The translations under genes and the position numbers were made by a program. From Gemmatimonadaceae bacterium (GTDB taxonomy: Bacteria; Gemmatimonadota; Gemmatimonadetes; Gemmatimonadales; Gemmatimonadaceae): a stretch of DNA of 64,000 nt. Shown piece after piece: positions 51,790-60,798 of the stretch (position 1 is the stretch's first letter; every line of letters starts with the position of its first letter). Where the stretch lies: contig DASXUN010000030.1 in assembly GCA_036504815.1 (NCBI GenBank), positions 186,001-250,000 of the forward strand, written 5' to 3'. The notes beneath the pieces are model-generated. The model saw only the letters and a program-made list of their open reading frames with translations, was not told the DNA's origin and ran no database searches.

Positions 51790-52872
<1,083 letters not shown>

Positions 52873-52877
52873 CGCGT

Positions 52878-54266
52878 TCACTCGTGCCACTTCGCGACCG
52901 TGAATCGCGACAGTTTCACGCCGGACGCCCAGAATCTTCCGGGAAGGCCCGCCTTCTCCTTCAAGTGAAAGAGGAACTCGGCGGGCTTCGGGAGCTGCTC
53001 CCACACCTGCGGGAGATAGACGCTGCGATGGCGCCCGTATTCACACAGCACGCCGTCGACGTTGGGCCGCAGCGCCGAGAGCGCCTCTGTCTCGCTGGCC
53101 ACCGTCATCGGTTCGGGCGCCGACAGCAGCGACACCTCCACGCGCACGTCCTCGAACTCGGTGTGCTTCAACGGGCGGAAGCGCGGATCCTGGAAGGCCG
53201 CGGCGACAGCGTTCTCCTGCACGTCCTCGCCCAGTGGGCGACGCGCCTCGATGGAGCCGATGCACCCGCACAGCTTGCCTCTCTTCGTAAGTGTCACGAA
53301 GGTGGCACCCGGTTTCGACAACCACGACGCATCGGCCGCCGCCGGCGTGCGCAGGCCAAGCGCTGCCCCGATGGCGCCGCGCGCGAGCCGCAGCAGCATG
53401 GCGCCCTTCACCTCCTCCGCGACCACGCCGGTGCGGGCGGCATCGTCCGCATCCACGGACACCGAGTCACCGCTCGCCGGCAGGAAGGCGAACGCGGCGT
53501 ACCCCACCACACGCTCCGCATCACCCGCCGTCTGGCTCGAGTTGCGCACGTCGAGCACCACCGGCTTCAGGCCGTGCCGCTGCGCCGCAAGCAGCAGGCC
53601 GTTGATCGGCGTGGCCCCGCAGGCCTGACGATGCCCGATATGGTGGTTCAGTTGCAGGATCGCCGCCACCGTATCGGCATCCACGCGGCGGGCGACCTCA
53701 TCGGGGAGGTAGTGCGAAAGGTCGGAACTGATCACGAGGAGTGTCTCGTCGCCGCCCCAGGCGAGGTCCAGCACGTCCGCCACCTGCGCCGCACTCGCCT
53801 CGCCCACCACCAGCGGGACCAGCTGGAAATCGCCGAGCACCTGCTGCAGAAACGGGAGCTGCACCTCGAGCGAGTGCTCGGGCTCGTGCGCGTCATCGTT
53901 GCGCGAGACGTGCGGCGAGGCATCAAGCTGTCGCATTACCTCGACGTCGAGGGCAACCTCACCGAAGGGGGTGCGGAAGCGGTCGCTCGTCGGCAGCGCG
54001 AGCCCCCGCAGCATCACGTGATGGGCGGGGCCGAGCAGCACGACCCGGCGATACCGGTCGCGCAGCGGCGCGAGTTGGGCGTAGGCGCTGGCAGCGATCG
54101 GTCCCGAGTAGATGTAGCCCGCGTGCGGCACGATGAGCGCCTTGGGCGCTCGCTCGAGCGCGGCGCCTTCGGGCCGTGCGAGCAGTTCGACAACGTCCTG
54201 CTTGAGCGAAGCGGGACGGGCGGCGTAGAACATCCCCGCCACGGCGGGAGGACGAACGGTGGTCAT
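52878..54266 (-). CDS. Fused Memo-like (AmrB) and AMMECR1-like (AmrA) protein
   Basis: 462 residues. Residues 1-265 are Memo-like: RPPAVAGMFYAARPASLKQDV, VPHAGYIYSGPIAASAYAQL, PAHHVMLRGLALPTSDRFRTPFGEVALD, EHSLEVQLPFLQ, ISSDLSHYLPDEVARRVDADT, CGATPINGLLLAAQRHG. Residues ~285-462 are AMMECR1-like: GATFVTLTKRGKLCGCIGSIEARRPLGEDVQENAVAAAFQDPRFRPL and PNVDGVLCEYGRHRSVYLPQVWEQLP. The fusion is a natural unit of the AmmeMemoRadiSam set with the following amrS. Pathway unknown; a metal-dependent redox or C-C bond step with the radical SAM enzyme is only inference. Confidence 0.92.
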   Translation of the reverse strand: MTTVRPPAVAGMFYAARPASLKQDVVELLARPEGAALERAPKALIVPHAGYIYSGPIAASAYAQLAPLRDRYRRVVLLGPAHHVMLRGLALPTSDRFRTPFGEVALDVEVMRQLDASPHVSRNDDAHEPEHSLEVQLPFLQQVLGDFQLVPLVVGEASAAQVADVLDLAWGGDETLLVISSDLSHYLPDEVARRVDADTVAAILQLNHHIGHRQACGATPINGLLLAAQRHGLKPVVLDVRNSSQTAGDAERVVGYAAFAFLPASGDSVSVDADDAARTGVVAEEVKGAMLLRLARGAIGAALGLRTPAAADASWLSKPGATFVTLTKRGKLCGCIGSIEARRPLGEDVQENAVAAAFQDPRFRPLKHTEFEDVRVEVSLLSAPEPMTVASETEALSALRPNVDGVLCEYGRHRSVYLPQVWEQLPKPAEFLFHLKEKAGLPGRFWASGVKLSRFTVAKWHE

Positions 54267-54411: not shown

Positions 54412-56289
54412 TCACGTCCGGAACACGTCGAGCGCCAATTCCACCTTCCCGAACGGCGCCGACACCTGCACGCCCTGCACCACCGGCCGCACCCGATCGA
54501 GCATCTCCCGCGCGATGGCGATCCCTTCGGCCACGGCGTGATCCTTGGACTTCTCGTTGGCGCGCCCCATGCGCTCGATGACGGCCGACGGCACCGTGAC
54601 CCCGGGCACTTCATTTGCCAGGAATTCGGCGTTGCGCACCGACACGAGCGGCCAGATGCCGGCCACGACGGGGAGATGATGCTCCTCGATGCGCCGTACG
54701 AACGACTCGAGTTGCTCCGTGTCAAAGACCGGCTGCGTGACCGCGAACTCGGCGCCCGCCTCCACCTTCCACGCGAAGCGCTTCAGTTCGTGTTCCACGT
54801 CGATCGCGACCGGGTTCACGCCGACGCCGATCACGTAGCGCGTGGGGGCGCCAATGCTGTTGCCGCCCGGATCGACGCCGTGGTTGAGGCGGCTCACGAG
54901 ATTCGTGAGGCCGATGGCATCGATGTCGAAGACCGCGGTCGCATCGGGATACGGCCCCATCTTGGGCGGATCGCCCGTGACGAGCAGCACATTGTGCAGG
55001 CCGAGCGCCGACGCGCCGAGCAGGTCGGAGAGCATACCCAGCAGGTTGCGGTCGCGGCAGGCGTAGTGGGTGACCGTCTCGATGCCGCAGGCCTGCTGGA
55101 TGAGCACGCTGGTGGCGATGGCGCTCATGCGGCTTTGCGCGCGCGGGCCGTCGGGGACGTTCACGGCGTCCACGCCGGCGGCCTTCAGCTTGCGCACCTC
55201 GTCGAGCATGCGCGATGGCTCGACGCCGCGGGGCGGCACGATCTCGACACTGGTCACGAAGGCGCCGGCCGCGAGCTTTCGTCCCCACGCCGAGCGCTCG
55301 CCCAGCGCCACCGGCTGCACCGCGTGCGACTCGTGGTGCGCGGCCACCCGCGACAGTCGCCCGCCGCCGGCCGAACCCTCGACCGTCGCGTGGCGCGGCA
55401 CCAGCGGGCGGACGCCGTCCACCATCGCGCGGATGTGGTCGGGCGTCGTCCCGCAGCAGCCGCCGATCAGTCGCACGCCGGCCTGGATCAGGTTGCGCGC
55501 ATACGTCGACATGTACTCGGGGCTCGCCATGTACATGCGACGCCCGCTGACCTCGCGCGGCATGCCGGCGTTCGGCATCGCCGAGAGCTTCTTCGACGTG
55601 ACCGGCACCATGCGCTCGATCGCCTCGAGGATGGTCTGTGGTCCCACGGAACAGTTGAGGCCGATGATGTCCGCGCCGCTCTCCTCCAGCGCCTCGGCCA
55701 CTTCCTCGGGCGGCACGCCAAACGACGTGACGCCGTCGGGGCCCACCGTCATCTGCGCGATGACGGGGAGGGCGGGGTCCACGGCGCGGGCCGCCTTCAC
55801 CGCCTGCGCGATCTCGTTCAGGTCGCTGAACGTCTCGAGGATGAAGCAGTCCACGCCGCCCTCGCGGAGGGCGCGCATCTGCTCGGCGAAGAACTCCTGC
55901 GCTTCCTCGCGCGAGGTGGGACCGTACGGCTCGATGCGCAGGCCCAGCGGGCCCACCGCCCCCGCCACCAGCGCCTGCTCGCCGGCCGCGTCGCGGGCCA
56001 GCGTCGCGGCGGCCACGTTGAACTCGCGCACGTTCGCCTCGAGCCCGTAGTGCTGAAGCTTGGGCCGGTTGGCGCCGAAGGAGTTGGTCTCCAGCAATTC
56101 CGCGCCGGCGCGCACGTAGTCGGCATGGATGCCGCGCACGAGGTCGGGCTGGCGGACGTTCAGCTCGTCGTAGCACTGGTTGATGAAGACGCCCTTCGCG
56201 TACAGCACGGTGCCCATCGCACCGTCGGCGATCACCACCTGCGCCGGATCAACGAGCCGATGCCGCAGCTCGTCGCGTGTTGCGCTCAT
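54412..56289 (-). CDS. Bifunctional homocysteine S-methyltransferase / 5,10-methylenetetrahydrofolate reductase
   Basis: 625 residues from ATG 56289 (overlapping the metH stop, ATGA). Residues 1-300 are the homocysteine methyltransferase barrel: IADGAMGTVLYAKG, LLETNSFGANRPKL, FILETFSDLNEI, IGLNCSVGP and RLIGGCCGTTPDHI, giving the Cys zinc ligands. Residues ~330-625 are MTHFR: SVEIVPPRG, VNVPDGPRAQSRMS, ETVTHYACRDRNLLGM, VLLVTGDPPKMGPY and FAVTQPVFDTEQLESFV. The fusion (as in YitJ-type proteins) reduces methylene-THF and may methylate homocysteine. Translational coupling to metH puts both steps under the metH leader. Confidence 0.93.
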   Translation of the reverse strand: MSATRDELRHRLVDPAQVVIADGAMGTVLYAKGVFINQCYDELNVRQPDLVRGIHADYVRAGAELLETNSFGANRPKLQHYGLEANVREFNVAAATLARDAAGEQALVAGAVGPLGLRIEPYGPTSREEAQEFFAEQMRALREGGVDCFILETFSDLNEIAQAVKAARAVDPALPVIAQMTVGPDGVTSFGVPPEEVAEALEESGADIIGLNCSVGPQTILEAIERMVPVTSKKLSAMPNAGMPREVSGRRMYMASPEYMSTYARNLIQAGVRLIGGCCGTTPDHIRAMVDGVRPLVPRHATVEGSAGGGRLSRVAAHHESHAVQPVALGERSAWGRKLAAGAFVTSVEIVPPRGVEPSRMLDEVRKLKAAGVDAVNVPDGPRAQSRMSAIATSVLIQQACGIETVTHYACRDRNLLGMLSDLLGASALGLHNVLLVTGDPPKMGPYPDATAVFDIDAIGLTNLVSRLNHGVDPGGNSIGAPTRYVIGVGVNPVAIDVEHELKRFAWKVEAGAEFAVTQPVFDTEQLESFVRRIEEHHLPVVAGIWPLVSVRNAEFLANEVPGVTVPSAVIERMGRANEKSKDHAVAEGIAIAREMLDRVRPVVQGVQVSAPFGKVELALDVFRT

Positions 56290-59200
56290 GTCGCCTCCGC
56301 CGCGGTGCGCACCGCGTAGTACTTGCATTCCGGATGGTGGAGAACGATGGCGGCCGTGCTCTGCTCGGGGACGAGCTGGAATGCCTCGGTGAGCGTCATG
56401 CCGAGCGCCTGTTCCGCGGGGAGCAGCTTGAACAGCTGCCCGTGGTCGTCGAGATCGGGGCACGCGCCGTACCCCCACGAGTAGCGCTTGCCCTGCACCG
56501 GGTCGACGCCCAGTTCACGGCGGATGTGCGCGTGCATCCACTGCGCGGTGGCCTCGGCCGCCTCGACGGCGAGGCCGTGCACCAGGAAAGCCTCGCTGTA
56601 CTCGCCGGCGGCCTGCAGCGCGGCGAACCGGGCCGCGGCCGCCTCGCCCACGGTCACGATCTGCAGGGCGATCACGTCCACCTCGTCGCTGGCGACCGGG
56701 CGCACGTAGTCGGCGAGGCAGAGATGCTCGCGTCCCACCTGGCGCGGGAAGTTGAAGCGTGCGATCTCGCGGCGCGCGCCGCCGTCGCTCTCGAACGCGG
56801 CGGGATCGTAGACGACCATCGCATTGCCATCGGCCTGGGCCGGGAAATAGCCGTACACCGCCTGCGGCTGCAGCCAGCCCTCGCGCGTGGCGTCGGCCTC
56901 GAGGCGCTGGCGCATGGGCTCGAACTCGGTGCGGACGAGGGTATCGAACGCCTCGCCCGAGCCGCGGCCGCCCCACTGCAGGCGGTAGAGCTCGTCGAGG
57001 TCGAGCAGGTCGAGCACTTCGCGCAGGGGGATGTCGTGCAGCACCCGCGTGCCGAAGAACGGCGCGCGCGGCACGGGCACGTCGGTGCGCACGGCGCTGC
57101 GCGCCCCGCCGGCCTCACCGGCACGGACGTCCTTGCCGACGTTCGTGTGCAGGAACACGTCGTTGCGCGCATCGGCCATCAGCTGCGCCGTGAACGAGGC
57201 ACGCACCGCCGGATCCTGCAGGCGGTCCATCGTCTCGAGCCCCTCAAACGCGTCCTTGCAGTAGAAGACCCCCGGCTCGTACGCGCGTTCACCCTCCACG
57301 AACATCGCGCGGCGGCCAAAGCGGCGATTGATCGCCGCGCCGCCGATGAGCACCGGCAGCTGCAGTCCGCGCCGGTCGAGTTCCTGCACGCACAGCGGCA
57401 TCTGCTTCGAGGTGCTCACGAGCAGGGCGCTGAGCCCGATGGCGTCGGCCTTCAGCTCGATGGCCTTGTCCACGATGGTGTTCACCGGCACCTGCTTGCC
57501 CAGGTCGTGCACCGTGTAGCCGTTGTTGGCGAGGATCGTGTTCACCAGCGACTTGCCGATGTCATGCACGTCGCCGTAGACCGTGGCGAGCACGACGGTC
57601 CCCTTGGTGTATCCCGCCTGCCGCTCGAGGAATTGCTCGAGGTGCTTGACCGCCCGCTTCATCACCTCGGCGCTCTGCAGCACGAAGGGGAGGATCAGTT
57701 CGCCCGCGCCGAACTTGTCGCCCACTTCCTTCATCGCCGGCAGCAGCACCTCGTTGAGCACACGCACCGGCTCCGCGCGCACCCCGGCCGCATCCAGCGC
57801 GTCCTCGATGCCTTCCTTCTTCCGGTGCACCACCATCCAGTGCACGCGCTGGGCGGCGGTCATCCCCGCTGTGGGATCGGCCTTCTCTCCCGTCTCCCGT
57901 CTTCCGTCTCCCGTCTGTTGGAAGTGCTCAAGGAACTTCTGCAGCGCATCCGGCCGCCGATTGAAGATCAGGTCGTCGGCGAGCGCCCGCTCCGTCTCCG
58001 GGATCTCGGCGTACGGCGTCACGTGCGCCGGATTCACGATTGCCGCGTCCAATCCGGCCTGCACGCAGTGGTGCAGGAAGACCGAGTTGAGCACGCCGCG
58101 CGCCTCGGGGGCGAGGCCGAACGAGACGTTGCTGACGCCGAGGATCGTGAGCACCCCCGGCAGCGAGCCCTTGATGGCGCGGATCCCGTCGATCGTCTCG
58201 TGCGCCGAATCCACCCACTCGGCGTCGCCGGTCGCCAGCGTGAAGGTGAGCGCGTCGAAGACCAGGTCGTCGGGCGACAGCCCGTACTCGCCGACCACGA
58301 TGTCGTGGATCTTGCGGGCCACCTCGAGCTTGCGCGCCGCCGTGCGCGCCATGCCGTGCTCGTCGATGGTGAGCGCGACCAGCGCGGCCCCGTGGCGCTT
58401 CGCCAGCGGCACCACCGCCTCGATGCGCGCGCGCCCGTTCTCCATGTTGATGGAGTTCACCAGCGCGCGCCCCGGCACGTGCTCGAGCGCGCGGGCAATG
58501 ACGTCCGGCTCCGTGGAGTCGATCATCAGCGGCGTCTCCACCGACTGCGACAGCAGGCGCACCACCTGCTCCATCTGGTCGGCCTCGTCGGCGCGTTCGG
58601 TGACGGCCACGCAGACGTCCAGCACGTGCGCCCCACCGTCCACCTGCTCGCGCGCGACCTCGAGGATGCCCTCGTAATCCTCGGCGAGCAGCAGCCGCTT
58701 CACCTTGCGCGAGCCCTGCGCATTGACGCGCTCGCCGACGAGCAGCGGCGCGGGGTCCTGGTGCAGCGTGATGGCGCGCATCGCCGAGGAGGCGCGCGGC
58801 ACATGGTGCGCGCGCGGGGCGAAGGGCGCGGTCACGGCGGCCGCCGGCGTCCCGGTGCCGGCGGCGGGCGTGGCGTCGCCGCGCACCGCCCGCACCACCG
58901 CCTCGAGATGCGCCGGGGTCGTGCCGCAGCAACCGCCCACCACGCGCACGCCGAATTGCTGCACGAAGTCGCGGAGCGCCTCGGCCATCGGCGCCGGCTC
59001 GAGCGGATAGACCGCGTCCCCGGTGCCGGTGTTGAGCGGCAGCCCCGCGTTGGGAATGCAGCTGATCGGCCGCGTGGCGTGCTCGGTGAGATAGCGCACC
59101 GGCTCGCGCATGTGCTCGGGGCCCGTGGAGCAGTTCAGCCCGATCACGTGCACCGGCAGGGCCTCGAGCGTCGTCATCGCGCTGGCGATGTCCGTGCCGA

Positions 59201-59840
59201 GGAGCATCCGCCCGCTCGTGTCCAGCGTCACCTGCGCCTGCACGGGCAGGCGATGCCCCGTCTCGGCAAAGAGTTGCTCGAAGCCGGCGATCGCCGCCTT
59301 GACCTCGAGAATGTCCTGCGACGTCTCCACGAGGAGCACGTCCACGCCCCCTTCGGCGAGGTACTTGGCCTGCCAGTAGTACTGCTCGGCGAGCGCGTCG
59401 AACGTGATGGCCGAGAGCGCGGGGTCGCTGGAACTCGGCAGCATCCCCGTGGGCCCGATGGAGCCGGCGACGAAACGCGGATGGCTGATGGTGGCGAACT
59501 TCTCGCTCGCGGCTCGGGCGAGGCGCGCGGCGGCAACATTGATGTCGCGCGCCTTGTCCTTGAGGCCCCACTCCGCGAGACGCCGCGGCGTGCTCTGGAA
59601 GGTGCAGGTCTCGACCACGTCGCAGCCGACGGCGAGGAACGACTCGTGGATCGCCTGGATGACGTCCGGGCGCGTGAGCACCAGATGGTCGTTGCATCCC
59701 TCCAGCGCCGCCCCGCCAAAATCCTCGGGCGTCAGGTGATACCGCTGGATGCTCGTCCCCATGGCGCCGTCGAACACGAGGACGCGCCGGCCGAGGGCGG
59801 CGAGATAGGCGGAACTGACGGCGGGAGGAGTGTGAGGCAA
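56286..59840 (-). CDS. metH: Cobalamin-dependent methionine synthase
   Basis: 1184 residues if started at TTG 59840. Domains in order: homocysteine methyltransferase (~1-320: VLVFDGAMGTSIQRY, GLNCSTGPEHM, GGCCGTTPAH), pterin-binding (~355-620: LLVGERVNAQGSRKVKRLL, MIDSTEPDVI), linker, B12-binding (~650-880: TKGTVVLATVYGDVHDIGKSLV with the cobalt-binding His, then GLSALLVSTSKQM) and reactivation domain (~900-1184: YGYFPAQADGNAMVVY, RYSWGYGACPDLDD). It transfers a methyl group from 5-methyl-THF to homocysteine. The frame is open to GTG 59903, but that codon sits inside a terminator-like stem and would add 21 low-complexity residues; TTG 59840 gives the usual N-terminal length, though without a clear ribosome site. 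A 27-base repeat lies near residues 642-650. Confidence 0.9.
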   Translation of the reverse strand: MPHTPPAVSSAYLAALGRRVLVFDGAMGTSIQRYHLTPEDFGGAALEGCNDHLVLTRPDVIQAIHESFLAVGCDVVETCTFQSTPRRLAEWGLKDKARDINVAAARLARAASEKFATISHPRFVAGSIGPTGMLPSSSDPALSAITFDALAEQYYWQAKYLAEGGVDVLLVETSQDILEVKAAIAGFEQLFAETGHRLPVQAQVTLDTSGRMLLGTDIASAMTTLEALPVHVIGLNCSTGPEHMREPVRYLTEHATRPISCIPNAGLPLNTGTGDAVYPLEPAPMAEALRDFVQQFGVRVVGGCCGTTPAHLEAVVRAVRGDATPAAGTGTPAAAVTAPFAPRAHHVPRASSAMRAITLHQDPAPLLVGERVNAQGSRKVKRLLLAEDYEGILEVAREQVDGGAHVLDVCVAVTERADEADQMEQVVRLLSQSVETPLMIDSTEPDVIARALEHVPGRALVNSINMENGRARIEAVVPLAKRHGAALVALTIDEHGMARTAARKLEVARKIHDIVVGEYGLSPDDLVFDALTFTLATGDAEWVDSAHETIDGIRAIKGSLPGVLTILGVSNVSFGLAPEARGVLNSVFLHHCVQAGLDAAIVNPAHVTPYAEIPETERALADDLIFNRRPDALQKFLEHFQQTGDGRRETGEKADPTAGMTAAQRVHWMVVHRKKEGIEDALDAAGVRAEPVRVLNEVLLPAMKEVGDKFGAGELILPFVLQSAEVMKRAVKHLEQFLERQAGYTKGTVVLATVYGDVHDIGKSLVNTILANNGYTVHDLGKQVPVNTIVDKAIELKADAIGLSALLVSTSKQMPLCVQELDRRGLQLPVLIGGAAINRRFGRRAMFVEGERAYEPGVFYCKDAFEGLETMDRLQDPAVRASFTAQLMADARNDVFLHTNVGKDVRAGEAGGARSAVRTDVPVPRAPFFGTRVLHDIPLREVLDLLDLDELYRLQWGGRGSGEAFDTLVRTEFEPMRQRLEADATREGWLQPQAVYGYFPAQADGNAMVVYDPAAFESDGGARREIARFNFPRQVGREHLCLADYVRPVASDEVDVIALQIVTVGEAAAARFAALQAAGEYSEAFLVHGLAVEAAEATAQWMHAHIRRELGVDPVQGKRYSWGYGACPDLDDHGQLFKLLPAEQALGMTLTEAFQLVPEQSTAAIVLHHPECKYYAVRTAAEAT
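57890..57916 (-). repeat. 27-base dispersed repeat inside metH (copy B)
   Basis: Identical over 27 bases to 730-756 in the emrA-emrB gap, on the opposite strand. It encodes QTGDGRRETGEK in the linker between the pterin-binding and B12-binding domains of MetH, reading through in frame. Its 14-base unit is GACGGGAGACGGAA. Confidence 0.85.
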
Positions 59841-59885
59841 GAGTGCGGTGGCGTGGTGAGGAGCGAGGAGTGGCGCGGGGGCGGG

Positions 59886-59932
59886 AAAAATGAAAGCGCC
59901 CACGGCGACGAGGTGCCCCGGGCTGGCGCTTT
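59886..59932 (-). terminator. Terminator-like hairpin between the riboswitch and metH
   Basis: On the minus strand AAAGCGCC (59932-59925) pairs perfectly with GGCGCTTT (59900-59893), followed after CA by TTTTT (59890-59886). This is an intrinsic-terminator layout. The loop is 24 bases and can pair further. Its left arm includes the AAAG of the conserved 3' GCTAAAG of the aptamer, so ligand binding and hairpin formation may compete. Confidence 0.6.
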
Positions 59933-59978
59933 AGCGAAGGATTAACGTGGCCGCAATTTGCCCGAAATCGCCACGTGG
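59929..59978 (-). promoter_or_regulatory. SAM-II-type S-adenosylmethionine riboswitch aptamer
   Basis: Minus strand, 5' to 3': P1 arm ACGTGGC (59976-59970), conserved GATTT (59969-59965), loop, TTGC (59956-59953), P1 arm GCCACGT (59951-59945), TTAAT (59945-59941), CCTTC spacer, then the conserved GCTAAAG (59935-59929). This order (GTGGYGAUUU, UUGCRGCCAC, UUAAA-like, GCUAAAG) is the SAM-II (metA motif) consensus as I remember it, with the 3' GCTAAAG forming the pseudoknot strand. Location directly before metH and MTHFR genes fits SAM feedback. SAM-II is best known from Alphaproteobacteria and often controls translation; here a terminator-like stem follows. Confidence 0.78.
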
Positions 59979-60068
59979 AACGGTTGTCTTCCTAATGATC
60001 GCTCGCCTTCGCGCCGAATTGCAAGGGAACGCCAGTGTTGCGGCGTTCGCCGCTGGTCCGGCGCGCGC

Positions 60069-60473
60069 CTAGACGCCCGGGCGCGATTCCGGCGGAGTCG
60101 GCGGCGTCACGCCGCGTCCCGTGTGACGGATGCGCGCCTGCACGTGCATCGCCAGCGCGATGAGGCGGGCGCGCTCCAGCGGCAGGCGGAGTTCCGCGAG
60201 GACGGCGCGACGTACCGGGGCGGGGAGCGGCGTGTCGGGATTGCCGAAGACGACGACTGCGCCGCCCGGCGCCAGTCCGAGCGCGCGCAGAGCGGCGGCG
60301 TTCGAGAGCAACTCGCGCTCGACGACGGCGAGCAGCGGCGCGGCCGCGGTGGCGACGAAGGTCGCCTCGGCGATGGAGCCGGCCGTCAGCACGTGGTGGC
60401 CAGCGGCGGAGAGTGCCTGCGCGATGCCTTCTACCAGCGCCGCGTCGGCGCCGACAAGCAGAATGGAGGCCAC
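60069..60473 (-). CDS. Degenerate response-regulator receiver-like protein
   Basis: 134 residues from GTG 60473 (MASILLVGADAALVEGIAQALSAAGHHVLTAGS). The alternating strand/helix pattern resembles a receiver domain, but the phospho-Asp position appears as Glu (LLAVVERELL) and the N-terminal acidic pair is reduced to GAD. A C-terminal tail (TPPTPPESRPGV) is disordered. If it is a receiver it is likely phosphorylation-independent. Start is uncertain (a CTG lies two codons upstream). It is 25 bases downstream of the DUF167 gene. Confidence 0.6.
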   Translation of the reverse strand: MASILLVGADAALVEGIAQALSAAGHHVLTAGSIAEATFVATAAAPLLAVVERELLSNAAALRALGLAPGGAVVVFGNPDTPLPAPVRRAVLAELRLPLERARLIALAMHVQARIRHTGRGVTPPTPPESRPGV

Positions 60474-60498
60474 GGTCAGTTCGAAAGGTGGCGAGAAG

Positions 60499-60798
60499 TC
60501 ATGATTCAGGGGCGAGCAGCCGCGCGGTGGCGGCGGAAGGGTCGATACCGTCAACATCCACGAGCTTCTGCCGGCTGCCGTGACCGGCGGCGATGCGCAC
60601 CGCGCGCAGCGGTACCCCGAGGGCGCCGGCGATCACCGCGATGACGGCGTCGTTGGCGGCCCCCTCGACCGGCGGCGCCTGCACCCGGACGCGGAGCGCG
60701 TCGCCGTGCGTGCCATCGATCCCCGGCCGCTTGGCCCGCGGCTGCACGTGCACGGCAAATCGGATGCCGGCGTCGCGGGGGCTGACGGTGAACGCCAT
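60499..60798 (-). CDS. DUF167/YggU-family protein
   Basis: 99 residues: FAVHVQPRAKRPGIDGTHGDALRVRVQAPPVEGAANDAVIAVIAGALGVPLRAVRIAAGHGSRQKLVDVDG is the complete DUF167 domain. Function unknown; the family is commonly encoded next to YggT, as here. Its ATG overlaps the YggT stop by one base (TGATG). Confidence 0.93.
   Translation of the reverse strand: MAFTVSPRDAGIRFAVHVQPRAKRPGIDGTHGDALRVRVQAPPVEGAANDAVIAVIAGALGVPLRAVRIAAGHGSRQKLVDVDGIDPSAATARLLAPES

Follow-up and report, generated by a model that had tools for sequence, protein, structure and literature searches.

The window, by which we mean the whole 64,000-nucleotide stretch of DNA analysed here, contains on its minus strand what sequence and comparison identify as a real SAM-II riboswitch of a Gemmatimonadota bacterium, located ahead of a methionine-synthase operon. 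We consider it very probable that this riboswitch shuts down the metH / metH-MTHFR operon by terminating transcription. On a wider scale, and with a good deal less assurance, we lean towards SAM-II being a class-wide methionine regulator of the Gemmatimonadetes, with a wider range of targets (metH, metF, metK, panB and organosulfur genes), a conserved antiterminator formed by the P2 strand, and one lineage that pairs SAM-I (metX/aspartokinase) with SAM-II (metH). A sequence-only reading of the locus had found the aptamer and placed it at 59929-59978. The aptamer does lie there, but that reading overlooked the terminator and a second copy in the genome, and the functional element is larger, extending roughly from 60024 (promoter-like) to 59886 (end of the U-run).

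Results

Organisation of the locus

The features of the locus, all on the minus strand, are listed below with the basis for each in brackets.

59981..60024: promoter-like region (conserved upstream of P1 in 10 genus relatives)
60024-60019: TTGCAA (conservation)
60000-59992: GATCATTAG box (conservation)
59988-59981: GACAACCG, likely transcription start zone (conservation)
59976-59925: predicted aptamer, with ACGTGGC, GATTT, CGGGCAAA, TTGC, G, GCCACGT, TAATCCTTC, GCTAAAG and CGCC in this order (direct reading)
59970..59976: P1 5' strand, ACGTGGC (direct reading)
59965..59968: L1, AUUU (invariant in A1)
59960..59962: P2b 5' strand, GGC (pairs with 59927-59925)
59953..59956: P2a 5' strand, UUGC (pairing with GCUAA invariant)
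59945..59951: P1 3' strand, GCCACGT (direct reading and comparison with relatives)
59930..59935: P2a 3' strand, GCUAAA (invariant in A1)
59929-59925: GCGCC, overlapping the P2b 3' strand, proposed antiterminator strand (pairing comparisons)
59925..59927: P2b 3' strand, GCC (P2b pairing and covariation tests)
59898..59923: candidate terminator hairpin, GCCCGGGGCACCUCGUCGCCGUGGGC (-16.9 kcal/mol; directly after the pseudoknot)
59886..59897: U-rich tail of the candidate terminator, GCUUUCAUUUUU (direct reading)
56286..59840: metH, B12-dependent methionine synthase, likely start TTG 59840 (TIGR02082, 1085 bits, above cut-off)
54412..56289: homocysteine S-methyltransferase/methylenetetrahydrofolate reductase fusion (PRK08645, 736 bits; NF006396, above cut-off)

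The protein family matches confirm the two genes, metH and the MTHFR fusion, ahead of which the sequence-only reading had put a SAM-II-type riboswitch. The likely metH start, TTG 59840, aligns with the ATG or GTG of relatives. GTG 59903 was rejected as a start, as it falls within the terminator hairpin and TTG 59840 fits the starts of the relatives. The ATG of the fusion gene overlaps the metH stop codon as ATGA, so that a single leader probably controls both genes; overlap and synteny recur in named relatives, and the two genes are adjacent in all of these whose contigs extend far enough. The records that contain the nearest metH proteins (identity up to 88%) carry the name Gemmatimonadaceae or Gemmatimonadota, in keeping with the host that had been thought probable.

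The conserved blocks upstream of P1 suggest a promoter, at a place where a canonical sigma-70 scan gave no match; a promoter just before P1 has been published for SAM-II (PMC1273637). The segment from the terminator to the metH start (59800-59886, minus strand) is C-rich and G-poor and resembles a Rho-loading region. Upstream of the riboswitch, 60069-60557 (minus strand) encodes a weakly receiver-like orphan protein without a Pfam match; many named Gemmatimonadaceae have relatives of it upstream of metH. An AmmeMemoRadiSam B/A fusion and a neighbouring probable radical-SAM protein are encoded downstream of the metH operon (51790-54266, minus strand).

The aptamer

The minus-strand sequence 59976-59925 is predicted to fold as a SAM-II pseudoknot. 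Its core motifs occur in the order that had been read from the sequence, with coordinates within a base or two; P1 is indeed a perfect 7-bp stem (59976-59970 with 59951-59945), and the pseudoknot strand GCUAAA, earlier described as invariant-looking, does not vary in A1. After TAATCCTTC, the aptamer ends in GCTAAAGCGCC, as read directly from the minus strand. All three pocket motifs are intact: AUUU at 59968-59965, UUGC at 59956-59953 and GCUAAA at 59935-59930. We take the AUUU of L1 to be the major-groove triplex strand, U10-U12 in the solved SAM-II structure, and GCUAAA to be the strand contacting SAM; the three motifs together are presumably the ligand-pocket residues of the published structure. 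From the conservation of these family residues we infer that the window leader binds SAM.

In 30 distinct related aptamers, the pairs of P1, P2a and P2b are kept in 99.0% of cells, and sliding the 3' partner by 1-3 columns reduces pairing to only 28.7-51.5%. P1 taken separately is paired in 99.4% of cells, its pairs being invariant in the genus (6/6). P1 and P2a are near-invariant in the 30 aptamers and hence carry little information on covariation. The outer P2b pair does covary, occurring as G-C, A-U, G-U or U-G. When P2b was tested at its exact geometry against swapped partners in 123 leaders, a z of 7.6 was obtained, with kinship ignored; none of our pairing and swap statistics is corrected for relatedness. 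MFE folding alone yielded no useful information on the leader (z 0.40), as one expects of a pseudoknot.

Model scores

No match to Rfam release 15 was obtained at the gathering threshold when the whole window was searched. In a local search with lax filters, RF00521 (SAM_alpha) matches 59984-59911 on the minus strand with 29.7 bits (E 6.7e-5 for 451 nt). The gathering cut-off of this family is 36 bits, and standard annotation would therefore miss the window copy. RF00521 is the sole family with E <= 10 among 4227 Rfam families in the region 59700-60150. Thus, the covariance search proposed in the sequence-only reading singled out the expected family, but with a score under the cut-off that the reading had named as refuting. 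This cut-off is a database inclusion score, not a structural feature, and is too strict a test here. The deficit goes along with an L1 that is 3 nt shorter than in the model, and the family contains leaders of this type with scores of up to 46-49.5 bits. A lineage model made from 32 leaders of the metH and metF types, all outside the window's genus, gives the window copy 68.7 bits (E 1.7e-15), compared with 9.3 bits for the next-best place in the window. The 3.5-Mb genome has only two places that score well with RF00521, the window copy and one ahead of metY.

The terminator

A GC-rich hairpin followed by a U-run sits between the aptamer and the metH start codon. The lower stem covaries from C-G to U-A in the genus. 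Shuffles equal the score of the window terminator in 6.5% of cases and coding stretches in 0.8%. The stem is imperfect, and no terminator came out of a scan of the window with the strict consensus. At a loose setting, 116 of the 123 leaders have a hairpin and U-rich tail, yet so do 34% of shuffled tails. With the cut-off set at 5% of shuffles, 68/123 leaders pass versus 3/484 coding stretches, and the window copy falls just short. Given this shortfall and the negative strict scan, the case for the predicted terminator, which is modest in the window copy itself, is built on comparison more than on this copy alone.

The proposed antiterminator

Leaders of the metH type offer the P2b strand GCGCC a second possible partner, GGCGC at the terminator tip; this alternative pairing would loop out the terminator 5' arm. 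A fully paired 5-bp partner (GGCGC or GGUGC) is found in 24 of 32 GCGCC leaders, and all seven GCGCU leaders likewise have a fully paired partner; GGCGG is the partner in the CCGCC leader and in one of two CCGCU leaders. The terminator tip of each metH-type leader beats swapped tips (0/3000, kinship ignored). When all leaders are pooled, the own partner beats swaps for the fixed search range 0-11 x 16-45 only (0/3000), and the test was not significant for three other fixed ranges. It was also not significant for the AACG and AAAG leader types, and badly delimited terminators gave no signal (z -1.4). With a signal in the metH type and flat results for other types and ranges, we claim the antiterminator, as supported by comparison, for metH-type leaders only.

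In a simulated growing transcript of the leader L043, the antiterminator hairpin forms first and the terminator next. The window copy has A59914 where the other ten leaders of the genus have G. This mismatch breaks one antiterminator pair, and the antiterminator would be weaker here: it has -3.5 kcal/mol as drawn, and the best early hairpin has -6.2 versus -8.9 in L043. The free P2 strand of the window could instead extend the base of the terminator (AAAGC x GCUUU). We infer antitermination in the window copy.

Pairing of L1 with the terminator region also beats swaps (0/3000), and may provide an alternative or additional antiterminator, which we saw by eye mainly in metY-type leaders. P1 strands showed no pairing signal with the terminator region. 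In order-level relatives, GCUAAAACG matches CGUUUUAGC in the terminator loop by eye; both strands hardly vary, and the swap test is uninformative.

Proposed switching mechanism

Transcription would start about 10 nt before P1. Plentiful SAM would bind in the triplex of L1 (AUUU) and P2, locking UUGC-GCUAA and GGC-GCC into the pseudoknot. With the P2 3' strand (GCUAAAGCGCC) held in this way, the adjacent GCCCG...UGGGC hairpin would fold, and RNA polymerase would stop at the U-run ahead of the metH start; the fusion gene, its ATG overlapping the metH stop, would be shut off along with metH. When SAM is scarce, the P2 3' strand would pair with the emerging tip of the hairpin (GCGCC x GGCGC in relatives). 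This would confine the terminator 5' arm to a loop and let polymerase read through. The comparative data argue for the terminator and support read-through by the antiterminator in relatives, less strongly so in the window copy. The OFF direction of the switch is what the likeness to known leaders and the needs of methionine synthesis suggest, as discussed next.

Alternative explanations

An ON switch, in which SAM prevents termination because the P2 3' strand otherwise extends the base of the terminator (AAAGCGCC x GGCGCUUU), can draw on an 8-bp perfect complement in the window and on a slightly more stable free-strand fold with the extension (-19.2 versus -16.9). We regard it as very unlikely: the full match is peculiar to the window copy, several members of the genus being without it (L045, L050 and L054: GGGCAUUU), repression of methionine synthesis when SAM is scarce would be metabolic nonsense, and the SAM-II leaders known so far are regarded as OFF switches (PMC1273637). 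Somewhat less improbable, but still unlikely, is a SAM-II that acts mainly on translation, with SAM binding hiding the ribosome site and the hairpin being incidental. Some SAM-II riboswitches are translational, namely metX env87 and S. meliloti metA (PMC9373788, PMC6061858), and the class itself contains five leaders (L010, L011, L013, L018 and L026) that lack a terminator and directly precede the fusion gene; in four of the five, an ATG is found no more than ~15 nt from GCUAA. These leaders are likely translational versions of SAM-II. In the window, however, ~90 nt separate GCUAA from the metH start, with a hairpin and U-run in between whose conservation includes covariation, and P2 does not tie up any Shine-Dalgarno-like sequence.

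The low Rfam score, the shortened L1 and the weakened antiterminator might also be signs of a degenerate or ligand-changed relative of SAM-II that has lost SAM sensing. This is improbable given an intact core (the strands AUUU, UUGC and GCUAAA), methionine genes as targets, and a leader type and gene order that are kept across named Gemmatimonadaceae. Least credible of all is a SAM-V or SAM/SAH riboswitch instead of SAM-II. SAM-V, known from marine Alphaproteobacteria and Bacteroidetes, is translational, whereas the window leader appears to be coupled to a terminator. Despite the binding core that SAM-V shares with SAM-II (PMC6061858), neither SAM-V (RF01826) nor SAM/SAH (RF01727) matches up to E 10 in 59700-60150, where SAM_alpha does. 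We thus favour a SAM-responsive SAM-II riboswitch that acts by termination.

Distribution and target genes

A SAM-II match (E <= 0.01) is present in 179 of 295 genomes of the class, and 139/295 are above the Rfam cut-off; RF00521 gave 0 matches in 14 control genomes. These counts bear out the extension of range that had been anticipated from the window alone. Within the genus, all 11 genomes have a match, one of them above the cut-off. The second copy in the genome of the window (G000:C3:29207-29280, equivalent to L058:5208-5281; 32.4 bits) precedes metY-metX-thrA, encoding O-acetylhomoserine sulfhydrylase, homoserine acetyltransferase and aspartokinase-homoserine dehydrogenase, names that we read from the sequences and not from a family scan. 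This copy has a strong terminator, CCCGCGG...CCGCGGG plus a U-run.

Among 123 distinct leaders, 98 directly precede metH (62), the metH/MTHFR fusion (12), metY (11), metX (8) or thrA (5); metH is over-counted, as 16 of the 123 leaders were retrieved by way of metH. The remaining 25 mostly lie ahead of metF-like (a label from sequence reading, not a family scan), metK, panB, thrC, homoserine dehydrogenase, rhodanese or ATP-grasp genes.

Several individual loci deserve description. An unexpected target is panB (ketopantoate hydroxymethyltransferase), which directly follows the leaders L006(-), L020, L023, L191, L193 and probably L009, with thrC next after it in L191 and probably in L193. An uncharacterised ATP-grasp-like protein follows L046, L174, L185, L197 and L006(+); a luciferase-like monooxygenase is next in L174, L185 and L197, that of L174 being nearest to SfnG but below the SfnG cut-off. 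These ATP-grasp/monooxygenase loci possibly serve organosulfur scavenging. L006 carries back-to-back SAM-II leaders at 1509 and 1792, each serving one gene of a divergent pair. In L184 (109-1468), metK (SAM synthetase) follows the leader. The leader of L176 (1-3292) is followed by genes for a rhodanese-like sulfurtransferase, homoserine kinase and a protein that we read from its sequence as MoeB-like, a combination that could point to a route to homocysteine via a sulfur carrier.

Matches to SAM-II and to SAM-I occur together in thirteen genomes of one genus (g56, family f4). The only SAM-I locus examined there (L200) lies between the metX and aspartokinase genes, and the SAM-II loci examined lie before metH. 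A survey from 2007 reported no species with both (PMC2258182).

Discussion

SAM-II was defined in Alphaproteobacteria, with few copies elsewhere; many have terminators, and an OFF switch was proposed (PMC1273637). The sequence-only reading was right in this respect, the few published copies from outside the Alphaproteobacteria being in other Proteobacteria and Bacteroidetes (PMC1273637, PMC2258182). Terminators predominate among alpha- and betaproteobacterial SAM-II (PMC2258182), the S. meliloti metZ riboswitch is predicted to be transcriptional (PMC9373788), and SAM-II is mostly described as such (PMC6061858). The mechanism proposed here is therefore not new in kind, as terminator-coupled SAM-II is known in Proteobacteria. 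New relative to the literature searched are the range in Gemmatimonadota, the metH/MTHFR and other targets, and the co-occurrence with SAM-I. That search, which had a broad 2017 riboswitch survey outside its scope, found no paper linking SAM-II or 'SAM riboswitch' with Gemmatimonadota; an earlier mention is possible.

A riboswitch class usually described from Proteobacteria, and to some extent from Bacteroidetes, is thus extended to a whole class of Gemmatimonadota, a lineage type proves to be hidden by the Rfam cut-off, and metH, MTHFR, metK and panB can be named as SAM-II targets. The leaders amount to >100 natural variants whose SAM-binding strand seems to serve as an antiterminator too. 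They make SAM-II transcriptional switching, which has been little tested experimentally, directly testable.

Of the other SAM riboswitches, SAM-I (S-box, RF00162) senses the same ligand in the same pathway, often by termination, but has an unrelated four-way-junction fold; it has no match in the genome of the window and is present in other families of the class. SAM-V (RF01826) has the same pseudoknot architecture and ligand core as SAM-II (PMC6061858), but no Rfam match at the window. The closest likeness is to the alphaproteobacterial metA/metZ SAM-II (PMC1273637, PMC9373788), with which the window copy shares the P1 hairpin and P2 pseudoknot, the AUUU/UUGC/GCUAAA core, a promoter just upstream and a terminator just downstream (both predicted here), and methionine genes as targets. 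It differs in belonging to Gemmatimonadota, in its shorter L1 and in its score under the cut-off. The proteobacterial SAM_alpha regulon consists of a metY core with hom, metA, metX, metC and metW (PMC4239095), whereas the window copy precedes metH and the MTHFR fusion, neither of which is in that list.
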